Source of the DNA: a virus
IMG/VR virus record: IMGVR_UViG_3300028800_000306
Coordinates: 1 to 24,566 of that record
Length of the DNA stretch: 24,566 nt
Direction: 5' to 3' (one strand)
In this document: piece by piece, positions 277 through 17,087 of the stretch
Layout of the letters: each line of letters opens with the position of its first letter
Position numbering within the stretch: position 1 is the first letter of the stretch
The notes under the pieces: generated by a model
What the model saw: the letters and a program-made list of their open reading frames with translations, nothing else
What the model was told of the DNA's origin: nothing
Database searches by the model: none
Program-made: the position numbers and the translations under genes

Positions 277-1632
277 ATGAACCCAGAGATACGTGTAAAA
301 TTAAATAAATTTAAGGCCCGCGAGTACCAGCTACCTATACTGGATGCGATTGAGAACAAAGGTTACAAACGGGTTCTCGCTATTCTACCAAGACGCGCCG
401 GGAAAGATTATGCTGCGTGGGCCTTAATTATCAGACAGGCAATTAAGCGTGTTGGGGTCTATTGGTACATTGGTCCTACGTATAGTCAGATGAGAAAGAT
501 TATCTGGGATTCTTTGGATAACAATGGCCAGTCGTTCCTGTCTATGATTCCTGAAGAGATTATTGAATCTCAAAATGATCAACAGATGAAGATTCGCTTG
601 AAGAATGGATCATTAATCCAGCTTGTGGGCTCTGACAACTATGATACCCTTGTGGGAAGTAATCCAATCGGCTGCGTGTTTACTGAATATGCTCTCCAAG
701 ATCCACGTGCTTATCAATATATACGGCCCATATTGCTTGCAAATAATGGCTGGGCCGTCTTTTTAAGTACCCCACGTGGAAAAAATCATCTATTTGAATT
801 ATATGAGATAGCCCGTAACTCTCCTGATTGGTTTGCTTATAAGCTGACTGTAGAAGATACTCAGCATATATCCCTGCATGATATTGAACGTGAGCTCAAT
901 TCCGGTGAAGTCTCGGAGGATTTAATACAACAAGAATATTATTGTTCATTTACACTCGGCGTTCAGGGATCGTTTTATAGCAAGTATCTTGATCGTATGC
1001 GCCTGAATGGCCAGATTGGAATAGTGCCTTGGGAGGCTTCGTTTAAAGTGCATACAGCGCTCGATATTGGAGTACGGGATTCAACCTCAATCATCTGGTT
1101 TCAATGTATAGGAACCACAGTGCGCATAATTGACTGTTATGAAAATAAAAAAGAGGGACTTGAACATTATGTCAACGTTATTCAAAGCAAGCCTTATACT
1201 TATGGTAAGCATATCGCTCCTCACGACATCAAGGTGCAGGAGTTCGGTTCAGGGATTACTCGGCTTCAAAAAGCAAAGCAGCTTGGTATTAACTTCACCG
1301 TTGCGGATGATCTTTCTATACCGGATGGCATTGAAGCTGTCCGCTCTGCGTTCTCGAAGATCTGGATCGATGAACAAAAATGCAAGCCCCTCTTGAAGGC
1401 GCTTGAGAATTATCGCCAAGAATATGACTCGCGTCATAAAGTATATAAGCCTAATCCACTCCATGATTGGTCTTCTCATTACGCGGATGCGATGCGCTAT
1501 CTCTGCATATCTCTTCCAAAAACACGTGATGGATTGTCACCTGAAGAACTTGATAAAAGATATAATGATGCCTATTATGGCCATCAAAGTAACTTACCCT
1601 CAGTCTTTCGTGACGACTTACCAAGGTATTAA
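277..1632 (+). CDS. terL: Phage terminase large subunit
   Basis: A 451-aa protein of normal length for the family. The large terminase is the ATP-driven motor that translocates DNA into the prohead through the portal and cuts the concatemer. The N-terminal ATPase half has a Walker A-type motif LPRRAGKD (37-44), a Walker B-like segment CVFTEY (133-138) in which Glu137 can be the catalytic acid although the usual Asp before it is Thr, and a coupling motif STPRG (164-168). The C-terminal half reads as an RNase H-like nuclease: Asp263 in ALDIGVRDST, Asp317 in PHDIKV, and Asp397/Asp404 in HDWSSHYADAMRY. Start ATG 277 follows AGAGAG. The last codons (DDLPRY stop) are repeated as DNA 410 bp downstream, after the next gene. 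Confidence 0.93.
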   Translation: MNPEIRVKLNKFKAREYQLPILDAIENKGYKRVLAILPRRAGKDYAAWALIIRQAIKRVGVYWYIGPTYSQMRKIIWDSLDNNGQSFLSMIPEEIIESQNDQQMKIRLKNGSLIQLVGSDNYDTLVGSNPIGCVFTEYALQDPRAYQYIRPILLANNGWAVFLSTPRGKNHLFELYEIARNSPDWFAYKLTVEDTQHISLHDIERELNSGEVSEDLIQQEYYCSFTLGVQGSFYSKYLDRMRLNGQIGIVPWEASFKVHTALDIGVRDSTSIIWFQCIGTTVRIIDCYENKKEGLEHYVNVIQSKPYTYGKHIAPHDIKVQEFGSGITRLQKAKQLGINFTVADDLSIPDGIEAVRSAFSKIWIDEQKCKPLLKALENYRQEYDSRHKVYKPNPLHDWSSHYADAMRYLCISLPKTRDGLSPEELDKRYNDAYYGHQSNLPSVFRDDLPRY

Positions 1633-2077
1633 TATGGAAATTGAAAACGGCTACATAGCTGAACTAGTTGATAGCAACGATTTTATGCAATTATATATGT
1701 CAAAAAAAGATCCAAGAAGCGATGCTACGTTAAATCCTGCAAATTATATATATGTGCACAAACATAATAAATCTATTTTTATTCATGAGGGGACGTTAGA
1801 AGCATTTGGATTTTTCATTAAAATAGCTCGGCCTCAAAAGAACGATATTATAAAAATCAAGTTTACAAATAATATCGAGGGTTTTTTTACTAACCTTGAT
1901 ACTATATTAAACACTATGCAAGAGGCTGCATTAGAAGATGACACTGATGACTACAAAGAGCCCATCGATATTCTATTACATGTAAAATCGGGTTGCCTTC
2001 AAGCATTACGTACATGTGAAAAAATAATAGCGCAAAGTTAGATGGAAAGACGACTTACCAAGGTATTAATATGGAAA
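1612..2077 (+). repeat. 29-bp direct repeat of the terminase 3' end, flanking the next gene
   Basis: Positions 1612-1640 and 2049-2077 are identical over 29 nt. The unit covers the terminase codons DDLPRY, the stop, and the start context of the following gene (AAGGTATTAATATGGAAA). The gene 1634-2041 lies between the copies. This is what is expected if a gene was inserted or duplicated at the terminase 3' end and carried the end of terminase with it. Confidence 0.85.
1634..2041 (+). CDS. Paralogue A of a four-member small phage protein family
   Basis: 135 aa. I chose ATG 1634, which follows AAGG and directly follows the terminase stop; the frame is open further upstream but that overlaps terminase. 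Function not recognised. It shares a conserved core with the genes at 2301, 2725 and 3529: a start SNDF segment, then YIYVHK, KSIFI, a Gly-Phe turn, RPQKNDIIKI, and NLDTI (about residues 15-95), followed by an acidic linker and a C-terminal helix with a conserved Cys-Leu-x-Ala-Leu. The core alternates short hydrophobic strands and turns, consistent with a small beta-rich domain. No membrane segment and no metal site. Base composition is more AT-rich than the terminase. Confidence 0.8.
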   Translation: MEIENGYIAELVDSNDFMQLYMSKKDPRSDATLNPANYIYVHKHNKSIFIHEGTLEAFGFFIKIARPQKNDIIKIKFTNNIEGFFTNLDTILNTMQEAALEDDTDDYKEPIDILLHVKSGCLQALRTCEKIIAQS

Positions 2078-2289
2078 ATAAAGCATTAGAACTTGAAGCT
2101 GAATACAAAAAAAGTCCAGCGTATGCATGGGATCAATTACATTTAATTGAATCGCGCTATAAAGAACATGAGCAATATCATAATGGAAAATCCTGCGATG
2201 ATGATGCGTGCCTCAGTAAATTTGTGGTCGATTTTAAAAAAGAAGATTTTTTGCAACATGTAGAAACTGTTTTAAATGAATTCATTTAA
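2071..2289 (+). CDS. Small acidic hypothetical protein (72 aa)
   Basis: 72 aa starting at ATG 2071 behind the repeated start module AAGGTATTAAT. Highly charged, predicted largely helical (LELEAEYKKS, then a DFKKEDFLQHVETVLNEF helix at the C-terminus), with two Cys near the middle (SCDDDAC). It does not belong to the paralogue family on either side and I recognise no domain. The 29-bp repeat of the terminase end lies just in front of it, so its upstream context is borrowed from terminase. Confidence 0.65.
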   Translation: MENKALELEAEYKKSPAYAWDQLHLIESRYKEHEQYHNGKSCDDDACLSKFVVDFKKEDFLQHVETVLNEFI

Positions 2290-2300
2290 GATGGTGATTA

Positions 2301-2723
2301 ATGGAATTTAAAGACGGACATACCGGTGAACCAGTTAATCCCAGTGACTTTGTAACGTTTTGTCTATTTGACGCTGTTGAACAAAATGGAAGCAGCTATG
2401 TATACGTGAACAAAAAAGAGTTATATGTTTTCATTAACAAAGATAAGTTAAATAAATGGGGATTATTTTTTGAATTTGTTAGTCCTGAAAAAGATGACAT
2501 CATAACGATCCACGAGGGAAATGAAGTAATCGCCACTTTCTTTAATGTCGATACCATGATTGATCTTTTATCAGTCGATCCACGAGAAAATGATGACAAA
2601 GAAGTGGTAATGATTAATGTATTTCCTAGAGATATGATTGATATTCTCATAATCTTGCGAGCAGAGTGCTTGAGCGCTTTGAGAGAAATCAACGAGACTA
2701 TGACGGGAGGCATAAGGCATTAA
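2301..2723 (+). CDS. Paralogue B of the four-member small protein family
   Basis: 140 aa. Shares the family core: PSDF near residue 16, YVYVNK, VFINKDKL, a WGLFFEF turn, PEKDDIITI, and FFNVDTMI; the C-terminal helix keeps the Cys-Leu-x-Ala-Leu pattern (ECLSALRE). It is the longest member because of an extra segment between core and C-terminal helix. Starts 12 nt after the preceding stop; the best ribosome site is weak (GATGGTG). Its stop (2721-2723) is inside the start module of the next gene. Function unknown. Confidence 0.8.
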   Translation: MEFKDGHTGEPVNPSDFVTFCLFDAVEQNGSSYVYVNKKELYVFINKDKLNKWGLFFEFVSPEKDDIITIHEGNEVIATFFNVDTMIDLLSVDPRENDDKEVVMINVFPRDMIDILIILRAECLSALREINETMTGGIRH

Positions 2724-2724
2724 T

Positions 2725-3132
2725 ATGATGTGTACCATTAAAACGTCACGTACATGTATACATGAGCAAATCGACAAAAATGATTTTGTAAAAATAGTTA
2801 TCGGCAAAAACATATCAAATCCTGATGATTATTTATATGTAAATAAACTCAGTAAATCAGTTTTTATCAACAATGATAGGTTAAAGAGTGGTGGTATAAA
2901 ATTTAATCCCCCTCATATCGAAAAAAACGATATGTTAACAATAGCACTTGATGGAAAAGAGCAAATTTTCTTCAATATCGATACCATAATAATTGAGCTT
3001 AAAAAATATTATGGATCCGAAGATATTACTGAAGAAAACCTTAACTATCTTATCGCTAGTTTATCGAGCGTAAAAGCAACTGCTATTCATCGATTAGATC
3101 AATATTTTGAGATGCAAAAAACAGAGCATTAA
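2725..3132 (+). CDS. Paralogue C of the four-member small protein family
   Basis: 135 aa, overlapping start module AAGGCATTAATATG (2714-2727). Family core visible: KNDFVKI, YLYVNK, KSVFINNDRL, GGIKF, IEKNDMLTI, FFNIDTIII, and an amphipathic C-terminal helix (in this copy without the conserved Cys). Its first residues MMCTIKT come from a 20-nt DNA segment (2725-2744) that occurs again at 3934-3953, at the start of a different small ORF, so the 5' end of this gene seems to have been copied or swapped. Function unknown. Confidence 0.8.
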   Translation: MMCTIKTSRTCIHEQIDKNDFVKIVIGKNISNPDDYLYVNKLSKSVFINNDRLKSGGIKFNPPHIEKNDMLTIALDGKEQIFFNIDTIIIELKKYYGSEDITEENLNYLIASLSSVKATAIHRLDQYFEMQKTEH

Positions 3133-3529
3133 AAGGTATTAATATGAATTATCCAATTGATAGAGAAGCGTGGAAAGAACTTGTATCTTATTATGCACAT
3201 AAAATTGAAGATCTTTTGCCACCAAAAGATTCAGAACAGTCACCAGATTCAATATGTTTAGTTTTCAATCTAGAAGAGGAACATGATGAAGTATATGGTG
3301 CTGGCCCGACATGTATGGCGTTTGCAAAATATAACCATGACACTCAAAAGTTTATGAGTGTTGCTTATCCAAAAGATGAAATATCATATTACGATTTCAG
3401 GGATGTGTGTAATCATAATGTTGGTTATCACTCAGGTAAAATTACCCATTGGTTAGATGATTATGATCTTACATGCCTGCTTATGGCTTTATTAGTTGAG
3501 AATCGTGCGTTAAAAAACAGAGCATTAAA
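3116..3529 (+). repeat. 18-nt direct repeat flanking the 3144 gene
   Basis: AAAAAACAGAGCATTAAA occurs at 3116-3133 and 3512-3529. In the first copy it encodes the end and stop of paralogue C; in the second it lies inside the last codons of the 3144 gene and runs into the ATG of paralogue D. Removing one copy plus the gene between would place paralogue C directly against paralogue D with a TAAATG stop-start overlap, which suggests that the 3144 gene was inserted. Confidence 0.75.
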
Positions 3530-3551
3530 TGGAAATTCCAACAGGATGTAA
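3144..3551 (+). CDS. Hypothetical protein, probable inserted cassette
   Basis: 135 aa from ATG 3144 behind the start module AAGGTATTAAT. No recognised domain; not a member of the paralogue family despite equal length. An N-terminal helix (REAWKELVSYYAHKIEDLL) is followed by beta-like segments (SICLVFNLEEE, TCMAFAKYNHD) and a C-terminal hydrophobic helix (LTCLLMALLVENRAL). It overlaps the start of the next gene by 23 nt, and its last 14 or so residues are encoded by repeat DNA plus the next gene's start, so its natural C-terminus may have been replaced when it was inserted. Confidence 0.7.
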   Translation: MNYPIDREAWKELVSYYAHKIEDLLPPKDSEQSPDSICLVFNLEEEHDEVYGAGPTCMAFAKYNHDTQKFMSVAYPKDEISYYDFRDVCNHNVGYHSGKITHWLDDYDLTCLLMALLVENRALKNRALNGNSNRM

Positions 3552-3933
3552 AGCAGACCGAATAGATCCTCGTGATTTTATTCAACTTAATCTTTCAAAA
3601 AGAGGTTCAGCGAGTCCAGTAACTGAAAAAGATCTTATATATGTGCATAAGTATGATAAAATTGTTTTCATAAGCGAAGAAAAACTACGAGAAGAATTTG
3701 GGTTATTATTTCATATTCCTCGTCCTAAAAAGAATCAAATATTGATGATTGAATTAGAAGATGGATCAACAAAAAAATACATCAATATTGAGGTTATAAT
3801 CGATAATATGAAAGATGATACCGAAGATGAAGCCCAAGATGATTTTATTGAGTTTCTTTCGATATTAAAATCATCATGCATACGCTCACTAATTACTGTT
3901 GAAAATATAATAATGGAAGGATCAGAGAATTAA
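3529..3933 (+). CDS. Paralogue D of the four-member small protein family
   Basis: 134 aa. The family core is well preserved: DPRDFIQL, LIYVHKYDKIVFI, FGLLFHI, RPKKNQILMI, NIEVIIDNM, then an acidic linker and a C-terminal helix with Ser-Ser-Cys. Its first codons (MEIP) resemble those of paralogue A (MEIE). Start ATG 3529 lies in the end of the previous gene. Paralogues A and D look closest to one another by eye (YIYVHK, RPxKN). Function unknown. Confidence 0.8.
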   Translation: MEIPTGCKADRIDPRDFIQLNLSKRGSASPVTEKDLIYVHKYDKIVFISEEKLREEFGLLFHIPRPKKNQILMIELEDGSTKKYINIEVIIDNMKDDTEDEAQDDFIEFLSILKSSCIRSLITVENIIMEGSEN

Positions 3934-4438: not shown

Positions 4439-5040
4439 GTAAAATAAGGTATTAATATGATGTGTTCTGTGTGCCAAAAGCGAGAATCTATTTATTGGAT
4501 AACTTCATTAGAACCAGCAATAGGTTTTTGTGATACATGCAAACCAACATCACGAAAATTAGCGTTACAGCGATCTCAATGTGGAGAGTCCGAGCCAGAT
4601 ATTGAGTTTGAAAATGATTATCCAAAAGATGAATGTTATTTATGCGGCAATAAAAACTTTGAAGAATTAAACCGATCATCAATTTCTAAGGCGTCACCTG
4701 TTTTAAATAATTATGGTGAAAAATTTATTGTTTTGCCGGATTCTTTTGAATTTGAGCGTTGGACCTGTAAATATGAATTTGGTTGCGGAAAAACATGGCA
4801 ATTAAGGTGGCCTATTGATGAAATTTTGATAGTCAGATTTCAGGATCCTTTATTTAAAGCTGGTTATAAAACCATAGGGGATCTTTCAAGAGCCAAGCCC
4901 GAAGAACTTTTAAAGATAAAAGGAATTGGCAAAAGAGCCATTTGGGATATAAAAAATTCACTAAGAATGATTGGTGTTAAATGGGGACATGGGGCATTGA
5001 AATGAATATCAACAGATTTATAGTACATGGTGTATAAGTA
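4403..5040 (+). repeat. 39-nt direct repeat flanking the zinc-ribbon/alpha-CTD gene
   Basis: Positions 4403-4441 and 5002-5040 match over 39 nt with one difference. The first copy is the 3' end of the 4061 gene (codons MNINRFIVHGV, stop) plus a few bases; the second copy follows the 4457 gene, where its ATG overlaps that gene's TGA and it leaves an orphan 11-codon remnant. The 4457 gene thus sits exactly between two copies of its neighbour's end, as an insertion with terminal duplication would leave it. Confidence 0.88.
4457..5005 (+). CDS. Zinc-ribbon protein with C-terminal RNA polymerase alpha-CTD-like domain
   Basis: 182 aa, start ATG 4457 (a second ATG follows at 4460) behind AAGGTATTAAT. 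Two likely zinc sites: C3-x2-C6 with C25-x2-C28, and C60-x2-C63 with C104-x5-C110. Residues about 121-178 align without gaps to the C-terminal domain of bacterial RNAP alpha, which binds UP-element DNA and activators: VRFQDPLFKAGYKTIGDL matches VRSANCLKAEAIHYIGDL of E. coli. Arg127 falls on E. coli Arg265 and the GIGKRA turn on Gly296-Ser299; Asn268 is Asp here, Lys298 is Arg, Ser299 is Ala. There are no alpha N-terminal dimerisation or assembly domains. A role in DNA binding or redirecting transcription is inferred. A generic helix-hairpin-helix DNA-binding function is the alternative. Confidence 0.72.
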   Translation: MMCSVCQKRESIYWITSLEPAIGFCDTCKPTSRKLALQRSQCGESEPDIEFENDYPKDECYLCGNKNFEELNRSSISKASPVLNNYGEKFIVLPDSFEFERWTCKYEFGCGKTWQLRWPIDEILIVRFQDPLFKAGYKTIGDLSRAKPEELLKIKGIGKRAIWDIKNSLRMIGVKWGHGALK

Positions 5041-6600: not shown

Positions 6601-6623
6601 AAGCATAAAAAAGGATAGTGACT

Positions 6624-8642
6624 ATGATTTTCCCAGCTCTTGGACCGGAATATTACGACGAGAAAGATAGGGGATTATTATCCCGAATGGAAGCTTTCTA
6701 TTCAGAAGCAATAACAACCAATTTAGCCTTCTGGACCGAAGCTGAAATCGATACTCGCTACTTTGCAGGAGATCAGTCAATCTGGAATGACCTTTATTAT
6801 GGCAATCTGCCAGCAAATAGACGTCGCCAGTTCCAATTCAATCGTATCCGCCGTGTCGTTAATATGATTGAAGGCTATCAGCGCAGAAATCGTAAATCTA
6901 CTATTGTAGTGCCAATAGAAAATGGTGACGCTGAAACCGCTGACCAATTCACTAAGGCATTAATCTGGGTAAACCAACAAGAAGGATACTTAGAGACAAT
7001 CTCAGAAGCCTTTGAGGGAGCGTTAGTCACTGGCCTCAATCTCTTACAGATCTGGGTAGACTATCGCTCTGACCCCGTATCAGGCAATATAAGAATCGAC
7101 AAGTGCGATTATAACTATTTCCTAATAGACCCATTTTTTAAGAAAAAAGATCTTTCAGACTGCAACGCGATCTGGAAGCGATCCTATTTGAAGAAACAAG
7201 AGTGTATTTCACTCATGCCTGATCGTGCTGAAGAAATTCTAGGACTTTATGGAAATGACACGGGAACAGCGAGAGACGGCAAGTTTCAGTTCTCGGCTGA
7301 GCAATACGGTTACTCCTACAAGAATCTTTTAACCTACGACGAATTTTATTACCGTGATTTCAGAACACAACGAATGTTGGTTGATTCGCAGACCGGTGAA
7401 ACAACTGAATGGAAAACTGACGACGAAGATCGCCTTAAAGCATTCTTGCAGGCTTATCCAACAATCAAGCTTATTGAACAGCAAGTACCAACGGTAAATC
7501 TGGCAATTGTAATCCAGGGCAAGGTCTTTTTTCACGGACCAAACCCCTTGGGAATTGATCGGTATCCATTTGTAGGGGTATTCGGTTATTATGCTCCCCA
7601 GATGCCCTACTTTGATTATCGTTGTCAGGGAGTGGTTCGTGGATTACGAGACGCTCAATATTTGTATAACCGTCGACGTGTTATTGAACTTGATATACTC
7701 GAGTCACAAATAAACTCTGGTTGGATATACAAAGAAGATTCTTTGGTAAATCCAAAAGATGTATTCATGTCTGGTCAAGGTCGTGGGCTTGCGCTTAAGC
7801 AAGATGCAAACATGGCCGATGTTGTGCGGATAGAGGCGCCTCAAATACCGCCATCAATGATTCAATTATCTGAACTTTTGGCAAAAGAAGTTGAACAAAT
7901 CAGTGGGATAAATGAAGAACTACTCGGCAGCGCGATCGATGATAAGGCCGGCGTACTCGCTATGTTGAGACAGGGTGCTGGTCTAACAACGCTCCAGGTG
8001 CTGTTTGACCAATTAGACTACTCTCAAAAGCAGCTTGGCAAGCTTATGATCGATATCATTCAGAATAATTTTACTCCTGGAAAAATGAAACGAATTCTTA
8101 ATGCTGATCCAACGCCACAATTTTATAATAAGAACTTCGGCCGTTATGATGCCGTTGTTGAAGAGGGATTAAATACCGCAACTCAGAAGCAGATGCAATT
8201 TGCTCAGCTTTTGCAGCTTAAAGAAGCGGGCGTTCCTATACCAGATGAGGCATTACTTGAAGCAGCAACTATCCAAGACAAGAAAAAGCTTATCGAGTCT
8301 ATTCAGCAAGCTCAGCAGCAAGCTCAGCAAATGCAAATGCAGCAAGCGCAAGTGCAAATGCAAGAAATCGAAGCTAGAACTAATCTGGCTCACGCGCGTG
8401 CAGAAGCCGATAGGGGCCTTGGTTACGAACGTATCAGTCGGGTTGAAGAGAATAAAGCGCTCGCTGTCGAACGGCGTGCTGCGGCTGTCAAAGATGAAGA
8501 GCAAGCTTTACTTACAGCTATTAAAGCAATCAAAGAAATTGAAGGCATCGATATCGAACATCTTGAAAAGTTAGTTACCTTATCGCGTATGCTTAAAGAG
8601 AAAGAACAAGCTATTGCCCCTCAGAGTCGTTCTGCGGTGTAG
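6624..8642 (+). CDS. Portal protein, P22-like
   Basis: 672 aa from ATG 6624, preferred because AAGGA lies 8 nt upstream; an in-frame GTG at 6618 is too close to that site. The sequence reads as a P22-type portal, the dodecameric ring at the head vertex through which terminase pumps DNA and to which the tail attaches. Supporting features are the length, the N-terminal segment with RFNRIRRVVNMIEGY-like pattern (here FNRIRRVVNMIEGYQRRNRK), the clip/stem region, GINEELLGSAIDDKAG, and a glutamine-rich coiled-coil region about residues 560-590 then a long charged helix at the C-terminus, which in P22-like portals forms the barrel. It is followed by the usual small genes rather than directly by scaffold. 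Confidence 0.85.
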   Translation: MIFPALGPEYYDEKDRGLLSRMEAFYSEAITTNLAFWTEAEIDTRYFAGDQSIWNDLYYGNLPANRRRQFQFNRIRRVVNMIEGYQRRNRKSTIVVPIENGDAETADQFTKALIWVNQQEGYLETISEAFEGALVTGLNLLQIWVDYRSDPVSGNIRIDKCDYNYFLIDPFFKKKDLSDCNAIWKRSYLKKQECISLMPDRAEEILGLYGNDTGTARDGKFQFSAEQYGYSYKNLLTYDEFYYRDFRTQRMLVDSQTGETTEWKTDDEDRLKAFLQAYPTIKLIEQQVPTVNLAIVIQGKVFFHGPNPLGIDRYPFVGVFGYYAPQMPYFDYRCQGVVRGLRDAQYLYNRRRVIELDILESQINSGWIYKEDSLVNPKDVFMSGQGRGLALKQDANMADVVRIEAPQIPPSMIQLSELLAKEVEQISGINEELLGSAIDDKAGVLAMLRQGAGLTTLQVLFDQLDYSQKQLGKLMIDIIQNNFTPGKMKRILNADPTPQFYNKNFGRYDAVVEEGLNTATQKQMQFAQLLQLKEAGVPIPDEALLEAATIQDKKKLIESIQQAQQQAQQMQMQQAQVQMQEIEARTNLAHARAEADRGLGYERISRVEENKALAVERRAAAVKDEEQALLTAIKAIKEIEGIDIEHLEKLVTLSRMLKEKEQAIAPQSRSAV

Positions 8643-10536: not shown

Positions 10537-10734
10537 ATGGCCAAGAAGAAAGCTATGAAGAAAAAGCCAAATAAGAGCGGCAAAGTTGAAAAGGTAATGG
10601 AAGAGTACAAAGAAGGCGAGTTACATAGCGGCTCTAAAAAGGGCCCTAAGGTAAAAAAACGCAAGCAAGCGGTTGCCATAGCTCTTTCAGAAGCCCGTAA
10701 AGCTGGCGAACCAGTTAAATCAAAGAAAAAATAA
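10537..10734 (+). CDS. DUF6496-type lysine-rich small protein
   Basis: 65 aa; ATG 10537 right after the preceding TAA (the frame is open upstream to 10504 but that lies in the previous gene). Very rich in Lys. The segment VMEEYKEGELHSGSKKGPKV followed by KKRKQAVAIALSEARKAG matches the pattern I know from DUF6496 proteins, small basic proteins common in bacteria and phages and of unknown role. It is plausibly DNA-associated and could be packaged with the genome. It ends the portal-side gene run, followed by a terminator. Confidence 0.7.
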   Translation: MAKKKAMKKKPNKSGKVEKVMEEYKEGELHSGSKKGPKVKKRKQAVAIALSEARKAGEPVKSKKK

Positions 10735-10874: not shown

Positions 10875-11114
10875 TTATTTTTGGCTTGAATCAGTCGTAT
10901 TGTTTGACGTCTGATCGTTTGATGTTGTATCAACAGCTGTTGATGTACTTGTCATGTCAGTTGAACTGGAATTTGAAGAAGTGTTATCTGAGAAAAAAGT
11001 TTCATAGATCCAACTTGCTGCTGCTTTTTCATCACATTCATCGCGATGAGCAGTCATTCCAAAAACTTGAGATGAAAACAGAACTGTTAATAATAAAACT
11101 GATGCTTTGAACAT
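10875..11114 (-). CDS. Small secreted Ser/Thr/Asn-rich protein, minus strand
   Basis: 79 aa on the minus strand; ATG at 11114-11112 preceded on that strand by AGAAGGA at good spacing. N-terminal signal peptide: basic start MFK, hydrophobic core ASVLLLTVLFSSQVFG, then the mature part with two short charged segments and a tail of almost only Ser, Thr, Asn and Asp. Opposite in direction to all virion genes, beside the MurJ-like gene and divergent from it. The fold-poor tail suggests a surface-exposed or periplasmic peptide. Function unknown; lipoprotein cysteine absent from the expected place. Confidence 0.68.
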   Translation of the reverse strand: MFKASVLLLTVLFSSQVFGMTAHRDECDEKAAASWIYETFFSDNTSSNSSSTDMTSTSTAVDTTSNDQTSNNTTDSSQK

Positions 11115-11181: not shown

Positions 11182-11209
11182 TTGTAAAAAAACGATCTGA
11201 TGGTATTAT
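11182..11209 (+). promoter_or_regulatory. Promoter for the MurJ-like gene
   Basis: TTGTAA (11182-11187), 16-nt spacer, TATTAT (11204-11209), followed by AGGAG and the ATG at 11226. The ribosome site starts about 7 nt after the -10 box, so the transcript would have a very short leader. The gene thus has its own promoter, independent of the virion operon. Confidence 0.5.
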
Positions 11210-11225
11210 CAATACAGGAGCCATT

Positions 11226-12530
11226 ATGAAAAGATATTTTCCATCTAGTCAGTTTTTTTCAATAAGTTTCTTCACTTTATTAAGTAAGATATTTGGATTC
11301 ATGAGAGAATGGTTTCGAGCACTATTCTTTGGAGTTGGCGAGAGATCTGATATATTTTTGATGGCGTACAGAATGCCATTCTTTTTTTATAAAATGTGTT
11401 CTGAGGGACCGCTCAGCGCAGCACTTGTTCCTTTTGTGGTGGATATGAATCGCCAAGAAGAGAGAACATACATGATGCAAGTTATTACTTGTTCTATGAT
11501 TATAGTGCAAACATTTTTTTTGATAGTATCGGTTGTTGTCATTATATTTTCATCAAAATTATCATACTTTTTGGTTCCTGGCTGGAAAAATATCAATTCT
11601 GTCTTAGAAGTATCCTCGCTGGTTCCTGTTCTTATGTCTTCGATGATTTTTATGAGTGCAGCTTGTTATTTATCTTCTGTACTCCAAGGCCTTTCTGTTT
11701 TTTCTGCCATACTTATGCAGCCAATTGTATTTAATATTCTCACAATAATTGAATATGGAGTGTGTTGGTATTTTAATGCTTCACTTATGACGCTTGCGCT
11801 CTGCTATTTACTAAATTCGATCATTATTTTTGGAATAACATGGTTATTGTTTCGAAAATATTATTCATTCGAATGGAACTTTACCAGATCTACCATCAAA
11901 AGATCATTAGAGCTCATTAAAAACATAGCAAGCAGCTGCGTAACCATTGGGGTTAATGAAATTAATGCCATCATAGATTTACAATACGCCTCTTTTTTTG
12001 GATCTGGAGTTGTATCGCTTATGAGTTACAGCGGTCTTTTATTGAGACTACCTTTAAGTATATTTGGTGCTGGTATTTCTATGGTGTTATTGCCTGAATT
12101 TTCTCTTATAAAGCACGATAAAAAATTACTTGGTCATTATATCTATAAATCATCTAAGATTCTTTTGGCATCGATTTTACCCGTAATTTTAGTTATGTAC
12201 GCACTTGCTCCGTTTCTATTTTCTTTAGTATTCAGATTTTCAGAATCACACTGTATTCTTGCAGCTCAATTTTTACGATTTTCTTTGATGGGATTGTTCT
12301 TTTTTTGTTTAAACAGAATGCTGCTCAATGTTTTTTATGCATTAGGAATATTCGATATTCCTTTTTATATATCCTGTATCGCGATAATCATTAACATCAT
12401 ATTAAATAATATATTGATATCATATTTTGGATCATCTGGTATTATATTAGCGACTTCAATTTCAGCAATCATTCAAAGTTGTTTGTTGATCGTATCATTG
12501 AGGCGACATAAAATAATTATAAAAAAATGA
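11226..12530 (+). CDS. MurJ/MviN-like lipid II flippase family membrane protein
   Basis: 434 aa, about 75 residues shorter than E. coli MurJ (511 aa), with about 12 hydrophobic segments. MurJ moves lipid II across the inner membrane for peptidoglycan synthesis. The N-terminal signature is clear: SKIFGFMREWFRALFFGVG, SDIFLMAYRMP, SEGPLSAALVPF. Against E. coli MurJ by eye, Arg24, Asp39 and Glu57 are kept (Arg27, Asp42, Glu60) and Arg18 is Lys21, but cavity Arg52 falls on Tyr55 (with Lys56 beside it) and Arg270 on Leu. So transport of lipid II is uncertain. ATG 11226 after AGGAG. T-rich and AT-rich compared with the virion genes, with its own promoter and terminator, so it looks like a transferred accessory (moron) gene. 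Another MOP-superfamily transport role is possible. Confidence 0.82.
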   Translation: MKRYFPSSQFFSISFFTLLSKIFGFMREWFRALFFGVGERSDIFLMAYRMPFFFYKMCSEGPLSAALVPFVVDMNRQEERTYMMQVITCSMIIVQTFFLIVSVVVIIFSSKLSYFLVPGWKNINSVLEVSSLVPVLMSSMIFMSAACYLSSVLQGLSVFSAILMQPIVFNILTIIEYGVCWYFNASLMTLALCYLLNSIIIFGITWLLFRKYYSFEWNFTRSTIKRSLELIKNIASSCVTIGVNEINAIIDLQYASFFGSGVVSLMSYSGLLLRLPLSIFGAGISMVLLPEFSLIKHDKKLLGHYIYKSSKILLASILPVILVMYALAPFLFSLVFRFSESHCILAAQFLRFSLMGLFFFCLNRMLLNVFYALGIFDIPFYISCIAIIINIILNNILISYFGSSGIILATSISAIIQSCLLIVSLRRHKIIIKK

Positions 12531-12564
12531 TACTACTACCAGCCCTCGCTAGGTAGCACCTTTG

Positions 12565-12610
12565 CCCCTTATGGTTTATAACTACGCTGACCATCCCATA
12601 AGGGGTTTTT
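12565..12610 (+). terminator. Rho-independent terminator after the MurJ-like gene
   Basis: CCCCTTATGG (12565-12574) and CCATAAGGGG (12596-12605) form a perfect 10-bp stem, followed directly by TTTTTATTTT. The 21-nt loop is long. It insulates the MurJ-like gene from the next gene at 12652. Confidence 0.85.
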
Positions 12611-12651
12611 ATTTTCTTAAATTTGTTCTATACCCTAGGTAAGGAGTAATT

Positions 12652-13128
12652 ATGAACAAAGATACTGTCGGTAAAATATCGCTCGAGCTCTCACAAAAAG
12701 AAGCACCAACTCGTGATCCCATTGAACTGCAACGGGAAATGCATAAAGATTATGAAAAACATATCATCGAATGCATAGAATCCAACAAAAACCATCTTGA
12801 TGGTGACTTTTATGTCGAAGTTATCACCAAAAAAGAACGACTCATGCCCAATGTTCTCAGAAATTACTTCTTTGCAACCCAAGCATGCCCAACGCCAACC
12901 TGGGATCAGGCAGTGTATAAGTATCACCGCCTTGATGAACAGGTAAGATTCTTGTGGGTTGTCCCCTCAAAAGATACGTGTGAACTGTTTACTTATAATG
13001 CACTCGAGATTGATAAATCTGAGCATGAGTTACTCAACTTTGTGCTGCAATTCAACGATGGATCATTATTGCGATTAGCGAAGAAACTTAATGGCGAAGA
13101 AGAACATTCACCATTTATTAGCAGTTAG
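12652..13128 (+). CDS. Conserved-looking phage hypothetical protein (158 aa)
   Basis: ATG 12652 after AAGGAG. Soluble. The central part has a distinctive pattern (VLRNYFFATQACPTPTWDQ, then VYKYHRLDEQVRFLWVVPSK) that looks like a folded, conserved core. The C-terminus is a helical segment (LLNFVLQFNDGSLLRLAKKL). I have no named family for it. It lies between the moron segment and the scaffold gene, so it may be a head-assembly accessory. Its 3' end overlaps the minus-strand gene that follows by about 20 nt. Confidence 0.72.
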   Translation: MNKDTVGKISLELSQKEAPTRDPIELQREMHKDYEKHIIECIESNKNHLDGDFYVEVITKKERLMPNVLRNYFFATQACPTPTWDQAVYKYHRLDEQVRFLWVVPSKDTCELFTYNALEIDKSEHELLNFVLQFNDGSLLRLAKKLNGEEEHSPFISS

Positions 13129-13445: not shown

Positions 13446-14195
13446 ATGTATAACCCTGATGATAACTATGAAGTTCATCCAGAAATAGCAAAATCACTAC
13501 CACCGCAACCAGAACCGGCTATTGAAGAGCCAGCAGAGCAACCAGAAGAGCAACCAGTTGCAGCAGCTCCTCAGCCTGAAAGTAATAAAGAAATTAATCT
13601 ACGCATATTGCGTGAGCGAGCAGAGCGTGCTGAGCGTGAGCGTGATGAAGTATTGCGATATGTACAAGATCAGCGGCCAAAGCAAGCGGCAGCACCAGAG
13701 CCCGAAGAAGATATTAATATCGGGATTGGTAATGACGACATAGCTGAAGGCAAGCATCTTAAAGAAGTGTATAAGCGCGTTAAGAAGCTAGAAAGTGAGT
13801 TAGCACAATCACGCCAACAATATACTTCGACTGCGGCGGAACAACGGTTAAGATCGCAGTTTCCCGACTTCGAAAAAGTCGTCACAGCAGATAACGTTCG
13901 AATTCTTGCACAAATGCATCCGCCTGCTGGTAATACTTTACGTAATTCATCTGATATGTATGATGCTGGTTATATGGCATATACTTTAATTAAGCAGTTC
14001 AATATCGATGCACCACACCAAGCAGAGATTGAACGAGCTCAAAAGAATGCAGCAAAACCTAAGCCGTTGAATAGCATTTCGCCTCAACAGGGCGACACCC
14101 CCTTGTCTAGAGCGAATGCTTTTGCCAACGGCCTTACTGAAGATTTGAAAACACAGATGCTTAAAGAGATGAATGAAGCTCGTAAAGGATATTAG
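13446..14195 (+). CDS. Scaffolding protein
   Basis: 249 aa; ATG 13446 after AAGGAG. Scaffolding proteins guide coat assembly into a prohead and then leave. Typical marks: a Pro/Glu-rich disordered N-terminus (about 1-45), charged coiled-coil segments (RILRERAERAERERDEVLR at about 53-71, then about 98-125 with KEVYKRVKKLESELAQSRQQ), a small folded part, and a C-terminal amphipathic basic helix (EDLKTQMLKEMNEARKGY) of the type that contacts the coat protein. It lies directly before the coat gene. Role assigned from composition and position more than from a conserved motif. Confidence 0.8.
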   Translation: MYNPDDNYEVHPEIAKSLPPQPEPAIEEPAEQPEEQPVAAAPQPESNKEINLRILRERAERAERERDEVLRYVQDQRPKQAAAPEPEEDINIGIGNDDIAEGKHLKEVYKRVKKLESELAQSRQQYTSTAAEQRLRSQFPDFEKVVTADNVRILAQMHPPAGNTLRNSSDMYDAGYMAYTLIKQFNIDAPHQAEIERAQKNAAKPKPLNSISPQQGDTPLSRANAFANGLTEDLKTQMLKEMNEARKGY

Positions 14196-14211
14196 ATTTT
14201 CCTTTTTGGAC

Positions 14212-14236
14212 TGGTCGTGCGCAATCGACCATTTTT
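14212..14236 (+). terminator. Terminator-like hairpin 1 after scaffold
   Basis: TGGTCG (14212-14217) pairs with CGACCA (14226-14231), followed by TTTTT. First of five hairpins in the gap between scaffold and coat. Confidence 0.7.
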
Positions 14237-14241
14237 GACGC

Positions 14242-14266
14242 CCCCCTGGACCTTCCTCCCAGGGGG
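14242..14266 (+). other. Hairpin 2 in the scaffold-coat gap
   Basis: CCCCCTGG (14242-14249) pairs perfectly with CCAGGGGG (14259-14266) around a 9-nt loop. No T-run follows (ATAATTTG). Its stem sequence is related to hairpin 5. Confidence 0.65.
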
Positions 14267-14289
14267 ATAATTTGAAATTCCTTTATTTT

Positions 14290-14309
14290 CCGGTGTCTGC
14301 CGGTTTTTT
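14290..14309 (+). terminator. Terminator-like hairpin 3
   Basis: CCGG (14290-14293) with CCGG (14300-14303), then TTTTTT. Short stem, clear T-run. Confidence 0.5.
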
Positions 14310-14313
14310 GTTT

Positions 14314-14347
14314 CCTTGGAGGGTTTACATATTCCCTCCAGGGTTTT
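14314..14347 (+). terminator. Terminator-like hairpin 4
   Basis: CCTTGGAGGG (14314-14323) pairs with CCCTCCAGGG (14334-14343) with one G-T pair, then TTTT. The same GGAGGG/CCCTCC theme as hairpins 2 and 5. Confidence 0.65.
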
Positions 14348-14395
14348 ATTATGGCTTTGGTAAATCATAACATTCCTGTTACGTGTTACTGGTTC

Positions 14396-14432
14396 CCCCT
14401 GGAGTTTTCGTGAAATTTCTCCAGGGGTTTTT
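14396..14432 (+). terminator. Terminator-like hairpin 5 before the coat gene
   Basis: CCCCTGGAG (14396-14404) pairs perfectly with CTCCAGGGG (14419-14427), then TTTTT. Upstream of it, 14351-14413 could encode only a 20-codon peptide, which I do not call. Confidence 0.75.
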
Positions 14433-14476
14433 ATTTAAACGCTTTACTAATAAGAGTATTCAGTTCTATTATTGCA

Positions 14477-14558
14477 CTAGCGTACTGGTGCTTCGCTAGC
14501 CCTTCGAGCGTATTGAGATTCGCTCACTCATGGCGTACGGAGTTTCGCCGACTCGAGT
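14477..14558 (+). other. Structured leader before the coat gene
   Basis: A GC-rich block with three small hairpins: CTAGCG/CGCTAG (14477-14482/14494-14499), GAGCG/CGCTC (14506-14510/14521-14525) and GGCG/CGCC (14532-14535/14546-14549), then the palindrome ACTCGAGT (14551-14558). It fills the leader between the last terminator-like hairpin and the coat ribosome site (GGGAG at 14579-14583). I see no ORF or clear promoter in it. Confidence 0.45.
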
Positions 14559-14587
14559 AATGATAGTTTTTTCATGAAGGGAGTAGT

Positions 14588-17087
14588 ATGGCTATAACAA
14601 CTACAAGCACGCTTCCGGCACCCGTTAACTGAAGTTGAGCGGGTATAAAACTATGAGTGATTACATGGAAAGTCTAAACATAAATACAGATCTTTGTTAT
14701 ACTGAATTAAGTACAACAAAGGAGTATTTATGCATGATAACCAGAGCCAAACGCATTGGGCGTATATAGCTGGAATAATGGACGCGGATGGATGTTTTAT
14801 GATATTTAAACACAAGCGCAAAACTAAAAATAAGCAAACAGATCGAGCTTTAGTTTTTCCAAAGAACGTAAAGCAGTGGGCTATTTCCTATTTGCCTGGT
14901 GTTAAAATAGCAATGATTGAACCTGAAGCTATAGATCTCATTCAGAAAGAAATGGGATTCGGCAATATGCACATCGATGGCGCTCGTAAGAGTAGACCCA
15001 AATCGAAGCCAATTTATCATTGGTACATGCGAGACAAACTGCGAGTGGCAGAATTCATAGAAAATGTGATGCCTTATCTGAGAGTTAAAAAAGATAGAGC
15101 GCGCCATCTTTTAGAATTCTGTAAACATTTGAAGAATGTTCCGCATGTGGGATATAAGGGTTTATCTCAAGAAGAGCTAGATTACCGAGAAGACATGTAT
15201 ATAAAAATGCGTGAGTTCAATGGTAATAAAGTAGGCGCAACGACTAAGCCTCATGGGCACGAGAGTGCATGCGATAGTCTAAACTCATAGGAAACTATGA
15301 GAGAGTGGATCGAAGAATCTGCTCCGCCAGAAATGGTCAGTAGGATGTGGGATCGCATCCGAAAGTAATAGCGAGTCAACAAAGTTTTAGTTATAAACTT
15401 TTGTCGGTGCCAGTGCCTAATATGATCCATAAAATCCCTGCGATGAAGAAGAATATGCCCCGTAATGGTGGTACAACTCTTCGTATGCGCAGGTATAATC
15501 CATTAGCAACAGCGATGGTTCCACTTGGTAACTCTGGTGTGACTCCACCGGCCCAAAATTTGACTGCTGTGGATATTGATGCAAAGATATCGTTTTACGG
15601 TACTTATGTGGTTTTGAACGAGCAAGTAACATTGCAAAACCAAGACCCTGTATTAAACGAATCAGCAGCACGTTTGGGTGTTTCGCTACGTCAAACCGAA
15701 GACCAATTAACACGCGATATGCTTGCTTCAACAGCGAGTTTTATCAACTCTGTTGGCGGATTTGACGGGGACAATCCAACGGAAATCACACGTTCTGATG
15801 TTGATACGGTTGTGCGTGCGTTATTGAATAATAATGCTTACACAATCATGGATAACATTGAAGGTGAAGATAAGTTCGGAACCGCGCCTAGAATGAATGG
15901 GCGCTATAAACTTTCTCTGATTGACTTGGAAGCCCAAGCTTAAGAGCGGGCGACAGGGCGGAAGGCGTAAGCCACCGTGAACGACTAAGTGAGAAGGCAC
16001 CGAAAGGTGATGCGATAGTCTGACCTCCGACCGATAAGGCGGAGAGGCGAATCCGAAGAGGTTTGCCCGCCTAGAAATAGGTCACAAAAGTAACAGAAAT
16101 GGTTCGTGATGCATATTTTGCTTTATGCTCCACAAATTTGACCGGAAGTCTTGATAACGTTGCTGGATTCATCCAAAAGAACCAATATCCAGCTCCAATG
16201 AATGCTTTGCGTTCAGAATGGGGTGCTATTGGAAACTTAAGGTTCTTGATTTCATCCATTGGTAGCATTACTCCACTTTCGTCAGCTAACGGCAACGATG
16301 TGTATAACATCTTCTGCGTTGGTATGGAAGCGTATGCTTGCATAGAGCAAGACGGCTACAGTGCCTCGTTCATAGAAATGTATGTGAACGTTAAATCTTC
16401 TCTGATAGACTTGGAACCCGTAGTGGCAATAAGCTAACCGGAAACAAGGGGCAAGATTATGGTTAAAATTAAAGATTGCATGAAGGAATTGGGATATAGG
16501 CCTGCATTTTGTAAATGTTCTGCGTGTAGAATAAATTCTCGCGAATTTGTTAAAAATATTTGCAATAATCCAATATCAATTCCACTTAAATATCTTAATG
16601 GTGAAAATAATCAGCCTGAACGACTAAGTGAGAAGACCTCGAAAGAGGATGCGATAGTCTGAACTCCAAAGGAAACTTGGAGAGGCGAATTCGAAGAAGT
16701 TTGCCCGCCCTACGTACGTACTACGTAAGGTCATAAAAGTAACAGAATTGATATAGACCACCTATATATGATGGCCCATTGGCGCTTAACGCATCAGTCG
16801 GCTATAAATTCGCTGAGGTTAAAATTAGTGACCTCGTTAAATCTTTTCTGATTGACTTGGAAACCCTTGTAATGGGTGACAGGGCGCAAGCGCAAGCAGC
16901 GTGAACGACTAAGTGAAAAGACGTCGAAAGACGATGCGATAGTCTGAACTCTATGGAGACATAGAGAGGGAGATTCGAAGAAGTTTCCCCGCCCTACGTA
17001 CGTACTACGTAAGGTCATCAAAGTAACAGAATGCCTAGGATTACGAACGACTTGTGGGTATTGAATTTACGCGCAACATTGGCTTAA
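14588..17087 (+). CDS. Major capsid protein, N4-gp56 family, split by four group I introns
   Basis: Joined exons 14588-14625, 15376-15889, 16102-16373, 16751-16820 and 17034-17087 give 948 nt, a 315-aa protein in one frame. Coat subunits of this HK97-fold family form the icosahedral shell. Family marks: MAITTTSTLP N-terminus, PNMIHKIPAMKKNMPR, TLRMRRYNPL, TAVDIDAKISFYGTYVVLNE, DPVLNESAARLG, EWGAIGNLRFLISS, and an ending RITNDLWVLNLRATLA. Each junction restores a continuous motif: PAPV-QQSF, KFGTAP-VRDAYFAL, YSASFI-YRPPIYDG, FAEV-PRITNDLW. ATG 14588 follows GGGAG. Without splicing the frame stops 14 codons in, so the coat, and hence the particle, depends on RNA splicing. The exon ORFs seen alone are not separate genes. 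Confidence 0.9.
14675..14703 (+). promoter_or_regulatory. Possible promoter inside intron 1 for the endonuclease gene
   Basis: TAAACA (14675-14680), 17-nt spacer, TATACT (14698-14703), 26 nt before the endonuclease ATG. It would allow the endonuclease to be made independently of coat transcription, as is common for intron-borne endonuclease genes. Confidence 0.4.
14730..15290 (+). CDS. LAGLIDADG homing endonuclease in intron 1
   Basis: 186 aa; ATG 14730 after AAAGGAG. One LAGLIDADG motif at residues 12-22 (YIAGIMDADGC), where the acidic residues bind the catalytic metal; a single motif implies a homodimer. The rest (GFGNMHIDGARKS, WYMRDKLRVAEFIENVMPYL, RVKKDRARHLLEF) fits the alpha-beta pattern of the family. 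Such enzymes cut intron-less copies of the gene so that the intron is copied in. The last 16 or so codons overlap the P7/P8 part of the ribozyme core, so the tail (GATTKPHGHESACDSLNS) is dictated by RNA structure. It may also help fold the intron. Confidence 0.85.
   Translation: MHDNQSQTHWAYIAGIMDADGCFMIFKHKRKTKNKQTDRALVFPKNVKQWAISYLPGVKIAMIEPEAIDLIQKEMGFGNMHIDGARKSRPKSKPIYHWYMRDKLRVAEFIENVMPYLRVKKDRARHLLEFCKHLKNVPHVGYKGLSQEELDYREDMYIKMREFNGNKVGATTKPHGHESACDSLNS
15890..16101 (+). ncRNA. Group I intron 2 (212 nt, no ORF)
   Basis: P1 pairs exon GCGCCT (15884-15889) with GGGCGC (15899-15904), U-G at the junction; the last base is G 16101. P7 halves are in ACGACTAAGT (15981-15990) and TGCGATAGTC (16011-16020); the hairpin between them is CACC-GAAA-GGTG. 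A following hairpin CTCCG/CGGAG and CCTA-GAAA-TAGG precede the 3' end motif AAAAGTAACAGAA. Removal joins codons 184 and 185. Confidence 0.88.
16374..16750 (+). ncRNA. Group I intron 3 (377 nt, carries a 67-aa ORF)
   Basis: P1 pairs exon CGTTCAT (16367-16373) with GTGAACG (16384-16390), U-G at the junction; the last base is G 16750. P7 halves: CGACTAAGTG (16621-16630) and GCGATAGTCT (16651-16660), with CCTC-GAAA-GAGG between and CTCCAA/TTGGAG after. A 31-nt 3' segment (16704-16734) is identical to intron 4. Removal restores the split Ile codon AT-A. Confidence 0.88.
16459..16662 (+). CDS. Small ORF inside intron 3 (67 aa)
   Basis: ATG 16459; a weak ribosome site (AAGGGGCAAG) precedes it. It encodes MVKIKDCMKELGYRP, then a Cys cluster (FCKCSACRIN) and a tail that, as in the intron 1 gene, is read through the P7/P8 core (ERLSEKTSKEDAIV). 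It occupies the same place in the ribozyme as the intron 1 endonuclease but shows no LAGLIDADG motif. It may be a shrunken endonuclease (a zinc-motif type) or a DNA-binding remnant, or not expressed. Confidence 0.5.
   Translation: MVKIKDCMKELGYRPAFCKCSACRINSREFVKNICNNPISIPLKYLNGENNQPERLSEKTSKEDAIV
16821..17033 (+). ncRNA. Group I intron 4 (213 nt, no ORF)
   Basis: P1 pairs exon GAGGTT (16815-16820) with GACCTC (16830-16835), U-G at the junction; the last base is G 17033. P7 halves are in GAACGACTAAG (16903-16913) and GCGATAGTCT (16936-16945), with CGTC-GAAA-GACG between and CTCTATG-GAGA-CATAGAG after. 3' hairpin CCTACGTA/TACGTAAGG shared with intron 3. It leaves an exon 4 of only 70 nt. Confidence 0.88.

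Follow-up and report, generated by a model that had tools for sequence, protein, structure and literature searches.

A murJ-like gene in a variable slot of a phage genome

The window (the whole stretch of DNA analysed, a virus contig of 24.6 kb, IMG/VR record IMGVR_UViG_3300028800_000306) carries the genes of a terminase large subunit (277..1632, + strand, phrog_2) and of a P22-like portal protein (6618..8642, + strand, PF16510, E 4.9e-76), both of which mark a phage context. The terminase has at least 590 relatives in IMG/VR, the best of them at 71%. Farther along, an intact open reading frame on the + strand (11226..12530) codes for a 434 aa membrane protein of the MurJ family. It is enclosed by a small basic conserved phage protein on the left (10537..10734, + strand), whose homologues occupy this position in relatives, and by another conserved phage protein on the right (12652..13128, + strand), with about 38-71% identity in relatives. 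The order of these two flanking genes is kept across dozens of relatives, and since conserved phage genes are found on both sides in the expected order, the murJ region is phage DNA. The murJ-like gene sits within the phage genome and not in host DNA, as had been proposed in an earlier note on this DNA, and the region did not turn out to be host DNA unrelated to the phage.

The interval between the two flanking genes is a variable slot. We found 70 distinct versions of it with a median length of 223 bp, 28 of them longer than 400 bp and 11 longer than 1 kb, and the cargo-like position supposed for murJ, an interval of variable content with a conserved phage gene on either side, is borne out. 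In other phages its contents include recombinases, short proteins that look secreted, and AAA+ ATPases whose starts resemble signal peptides. Signal-peptide-like starts, identified by a simple heuristic, are enriched among slot ORFs (14/36 versus 21/327 elsewhere, p 4e-7). The slot studied here also houses, on the opposite strand, a small secreted-looking protein of 79 aa (10875..11114, - strand) with a hydrophobic N-terminus by eye and no family match in profile searches.

Several of these cargoes are worth describing in their own right. Two relatives carry in the same slot a gene pair with signal-peptide-like starts, one member of which is an AAA+ ATPase (PF00004; L141:5470-7778 and L149:5541-7792), and the combination of such a start with an AAA+ ATPase is odd for a phage. 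A third (L018:14436-16373) encodes a secreted-looking proline-rich protein of 645 aa with no Pfam match, whose C-terminal part looks toxin-like by eye. Proteins resembling serine recombinases, again by eye, are found within the slot at L053:10201-10782 and L056:16683-17240 and are a possible route for cargo exchange.

The left edge of the slot is marked by a strong hairpin with a 15-bp outer stem that closes the upstream phage operon (10774..10819, + strand, about -28.9 kcal/mol, z -5.2). On the other side, murJ is followed by a terminator with an 11-bp stem and a T-run (12564..12612, + strand, -16.9 kcal/mol, z -3.2), and no shuffled sequence was as stable. An AGGAG resembling a ribosome-binding site precedes the ATG (11217..11221, + strand). 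The promoter-like TTGTAA-16-TATTAT with a TG (11182..11209, + strand) is plausible only, since the region contains 14 promoter-like sites against 12.0 +/- 3.2 expected from shuffles, which is no excess. Thus, from the claim that the gene has a promoter and a terminator of its own, the terminator stands but the promoter is at the level of chance. The different base composition that had been noted is real overall (31-34% GC in the murJ region) but fails as a sign of foreign origin, and we rejected that argument: GC3 of murJ is 0.29, within the 0.18-0.42 of the other phage genes, and the low GC is mostly due to the hydrophobic amino-acid content of a membrane protein.

No MurJ was detected with the Pfam model in 50 records of relatives (0/50), nor with a local profile in the 70 distinct slots or among the relatives' ORFs, and none of the genuine phage records examined had one. 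Furthermore, single-protein scans with the phage MurJ over genome contigs and viral contigs found no relative, and literature searches in open-licence papers returned no phage-encoded MurJ. Given its absence from the relatives, slots and genuine phage records examined, we treat this murJ as a single case. Three alignment-based scans of IMG/VR, which used short patterns and are not exhaustive for the collection, gave two partial murJ genes, both at contig ends (L285 and L167). The first (L285:4806-5084) is an ordinary MurJ start with the standard Arg/Arg, including Arg52, on a contig that bears a terminase-like gene and may represent a prophage inserted beside a host murJ. The second lies on a contig with phage-like genes. 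Three further matches came from a phage collection. One Acinetobacter "phage" contig was discarded as bacterial chromosome because it carries ubiG, nadC and ampD; another has the same organism name, a near-identical length and the same MurJ match; the third is an unannotated and unverified fecal scaffold.

A single occurrence and a low overall GC are what host DNA or an assembly chimera would also produce. Such an artefact would however need two breakpoints placed exactly within a known variable slot, with conserved phage genes on both flanks and a GC3 that fits the phage, and we regard it as highly improbable.

Other parts of the window contain features of interest. In the region 1618-3933, four or more ORFs (near 1618-2041, 2301-2723, 2725-3132 and 3529-3933) have in common a motif like 'YVHK..K.VFI....L' and look by eye like small tandem paralogues of one family; the two that were checked had no Pfam match. 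The product of 4457-5005 has a cysteine-rich N-terminus, and its C-terminal part resembles the C-terminal domain of the RNA polymerase alpha subunit (PF03118, E 2.4e-7); it is a possible transcription regulator. The major capsid gene (14195-16437) seems to be interrupted: a LAGLIDADG/HNH-type homing endonuclease is encoded at 14730-15290, and in relatives the capsid homology is split in another way; no Rfam intron family matched there, and an Rfam search of the whole window matched no family.

Family identity, length and cavity residues

MurJ is a pump in the membrane and delivers the building blocks of the cell wall. The assignment to MurJ/MviN (MVF/MOP superfamily) made at first reading was confirmed. 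The Pfam model PF03023 matched residues 34-432 with 185.5 bits (E 1.8e-54, cut-off 27.4), a profile of 65 MurJs built without the phage protein recognised it at E 3e-63, and all its PDB matches were MurJ (7waw, 9ukv, 6cc4 and 5t77, best E 3.3e-24). The score against TIGR01695 (murJ_mviN) was 209 bits, short of the equivalog cut-off of 235.55. The alignment spans the entire MurJ transporter core and the protein stops after TM12; the absence of TM13-14, which in MurJ form the lipid-tail groove, probably accounts for part of this gap. Between the murJ stop and the next gene there are only about 120 bases, not enough room for the lost helices. Chlamydial MurJs L118 and L121 also end without TM13-14, at real stop codons, and give a precedent for this absence. 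In a crude hydropathy plot the helices were not distinct, and core coverage is known from the alignment; an AlphaFold prediction from the single sequence, run without an alignment, had a pLDDT of 45.8, too poor for a helix count or for cavity charge.

The earlier note had read by eye a replacement of E. coli Arg52 by Tyr and of Arg270 by Leu. We set the protein against 65 bacterial MurJs, most of them from Chlamydiota (31) or assigned to Pseudomonadota (33), in three alignments: one of 13 sequences, one of 66 (the 65 plus the phage protein) and the profile built without the phage protein. No Arg was placed at either site, and the changes Arg52 to Tyr55 and Arg270 to Leu271 (E. coli numbering first) were the same in all three. 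In the 66-sequence alignment and the independent profile the changed sites are surrounded by conserved residues without gaps. Tyr55 (codon 11388..11390, + strand) lies in TM2 and Leu271 (12036..12038, + strand) in TM8, and each position is Arg in 65/65 of the other proteins. The inventory of changes was incomplete, though: beyond the two arginines, which stand, it had overlooked the missing TM13-14 and three more substitutions. Glu245 in TM7 (11958..11960, + strand) occupies the position of E. coli Gln244, a site of resistance to phage lysis proteins (Sgl) that is Gln in 65/65 others. One turn past Leu271 there is an Arg274 (12045..12047, + strand) at the position of E. coli E273, where all others have Gln or Glu. 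R18, Arg in 64/65 others, is Lys21.

The invariant Arg24 is kept as Arg27 (11304..11306, + strand) in the 66-sequence alignment, as are E57 (E60), N168 (N170) and D39 (D42), while R53 becomes Lys56, and positive charge is preserved in K46 to R49 and K368 to R364. The 65 MurJs have 13 invariant columns and the phage protein keeps 10, R24, E57 and N168 among them. The three that changed, R52, Q244 and R270, are all located on TM2, TM7 and TM8, the helices that line the MurJ cavity (PMC10229422, PMC4790310). This split between kept structural and changed cavity invariants is suggestive, as far as 13 alignment columns can tell.

R18, R24 and R270 are cavity arginines reported to be essential in both E. 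coli and T. africanus (PMC9973255), and R24 is the only one that the phage protein keeps as Arg. Arg24, Asp25 and Arg255 (equivalent to E. coli Arg270) have been proposed as a substrate triad (PMC6465408), so the loss of R270 is, given the essentiality of these residues, the stronger sign of lost function. The loss of R52 is a weak one because this residue, required in E. coli, can be neutralised in Burkholderia MurJ (PMC4790310). Actually, the charge of R270 may have been moved and not lost, since Arg274 is one turn beyond it. A one-turn shift of a charged cavity residue occurs naturally between MurJs (Arg352/Lys368; PMC6465408), a precedent for Arg274 in place of R270.

The same pattern of residues could be read as an inhibitory decoy, that is, a MurJ without transport activity that would bind lipid II or partners of MurJ and slow down wall synthesis while the phage infects or lyses the cell. 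In favour of it, R24 and the E57/R364 gate are kept and R270 and R52 are gone. The literature searched contains no evidence of dominant-negative MurJ forms and there is no direct support, which makes a decoy very unlikely in our view.

Origin, host and the possibility of decay

The closest MurJ matches are at 28-29% in Pseudomonadota and 28% in Chlamydiota. In the tree the phage MurJ branches off outside the two phyla sampled; its end branch has 6.6 changes per column, a length that makes the position uncertain. As for related portal proteins, strong ones were found in 7/192 Chlamydiota genomes (one from the initial scan), against 1/201 Methylococcales (the initial one) and a weak one in 249 Pseudomonadota, so that of the three sets the Chlamydiota genomes have them most often. 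Four portal-bearing chlamydial contigs measure 35-41 kb, about the size of a phage, and for this reason may be free phage placed in bins. Against chlamydial proteins, the secreted AAA+ protein in the slot of a relative gave no more than a weak match, over the ATPase domain. Another lead is provided by the Dependentiae: in the organism described, 44% of genes are reported to have signal peptides, and the mur pathway is full (PMC6561590). The signal-peptide-rich cargo recalls this group.

A divergent host could by itself explain the cavity. The gene would then be an ordinary lipid II-flipping MurJ of a host phylum not yet sampled (perhaps one that dwells in protists, such as Dependentiae) in which the chromosomal MurJ bears the same changes. 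The placement outside both phyla on a very long branch, the low identities, a GC3 that matches the phage and the resemblance of the slot cargo to the reported Dependentiae secretome all agree with such an origin, and a streptococcal (Gram-positive) homologue is functional with only 3/8 charged residues (PMC4790310). On the other hand, R52, Q244 and R270 are identical in 65/65 MurJs, nearly all from two phyla, and in the genomes covered by the searches no host with such a MurJ turned up. We consider this lineage effect possible if somewhat doubtful; it overlaps with the lipid II-flipping version of the explanation preferred below.

Single occurrence and a long branch are equally expected from a passenger, a captured gene decaying without function and with its invariant sites drifting, and the missing TM13-14, together with several near-invariant residues that have been lost, point the same way. 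However, the frame is intact over 434 codons with a ribosome-binding site and a terminator, and among the 13 invariants no structural one has been lost. Decay is unlikely on this balance.

Proposed role and comparison with known systems

The explanation that we prefer, with modest confidence and from sequence evidence, is a MurJ-type transporter acquired by the phage as captured cargo and with a rewired cavity. A tailed phage would have captured a bacterial murJ and carried it as "moron" cargo in the variable slot, which lies between its portal and capsid genes. Its product would be made during infection and inserted in the host inner membrane, where it would flip a lipid-linked pyrophosphate substrate by alternating access, its selectivity or sensitivity being changed. 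The hairpins on both sides, the conserved flanks and the intact frame support the cargo part. That the core and R24 are retained speaks for transport, and the changes at R52, Q244 and R270 speak for altered substrate handling or inhibitor sensitivity. Against this reading, no other phage examined has a murJ, so that selection is not measurable; among the reported essential arginines one is lost and one conservatively changed; and the 6.6-change branch would fit decay too.

As to what the protein does, lipid II flipping with relocated charges is our tentative choice and transport of another lipid-linked substrate is conceivable with less assurance; absence of any present function is unlikely and an inhibitory or decoy role more so. 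Choosing between lipid II flipping, another substrate, lysis-protein resistance and decay would go beyond what a sequence can settle. A working rewired MurJ could keep wall synthesis going with another substrate preference or in a form that the lysis proteins of rival phages cannot block, but the odds seem rather low.

MurJ is an antibiotic target and also the target of several phage lysis proteins, and phages are, to our knowledge, attackers of MurJ and not its suppliers. A flippase that rival lysis proteins could not block, or that titrated them, might allow the infected cell to survive. In E. coli, the MurJ mutation Q244P protects against the lysis proteins of phages M and PP7, whose lysis is also suppressed by heterologous lipid II flippases or by extra MurJ (PMC10229422), and the phage protein has a Glu at this otherwise invariant site. 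But it is Glu and not Pro, further cavity sites are changed so the match may be a coincidence, exposure of the host to MurJ-targeting phages is an assumption, the loss of R270 may abolish flipping, and no PADLOC model matched at E 0.01. We consider lysis protection improbable. Among the functions first suggested, the blocking of lysis by other phages gains circumstantial support from the Glu, but nothing specific favours the decoy.

With a natural MurJ that lacks R52, Q244 and R270, one could test directly which residues of the cavity are truly needed for flipping and which ones set the sensitivity to lysis proteins. If it is a working rewired MurJ, flippase replacement would be a phage strategy. 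Its value is limited by being a single case. What is new is a MurJ-family variant in an unusual place, a phage genome; the family itself is known.

With MurJ/MviN, as known from the E. coli and T. africanus structures, the phage protein shares the profile, the N-terminal signature, by alignment the span of the predicted 12-helix core, R24, E57, N168, D39 and the TM10 gate residue (K368 to R364). It differs by R52 to Y, R270 to L, Q244 to E, R18 to K and E273 to R, by the absent TM13-14, by a TIGR01695 score under the cut-off and by being encoded in a phage. The Wzx/PST and MATE flippases, other members of MOP, have 12 helices without TM13-14, as is predicted for the phage protein, but the Pfam matches to MatE and Polysacc_synt_3 are weak (35 and 26 bits, versus 185 as MurJ). 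The Sgl proteins of phages M and PP7 are also phage products acting at the MurJ step, and their resistance site Q244 is changed here; they are small MurJ inhibitors, whereas this protein is a MurJ homologue. Like phage morons and auxiliary metabolic genes, murJ is cargo between conserved genes, absent from relatives and with its own terminator; unlike the known ones, which include no MurJ in the literature searched or in the genuine phage records examined, this cargo is a MurJ.
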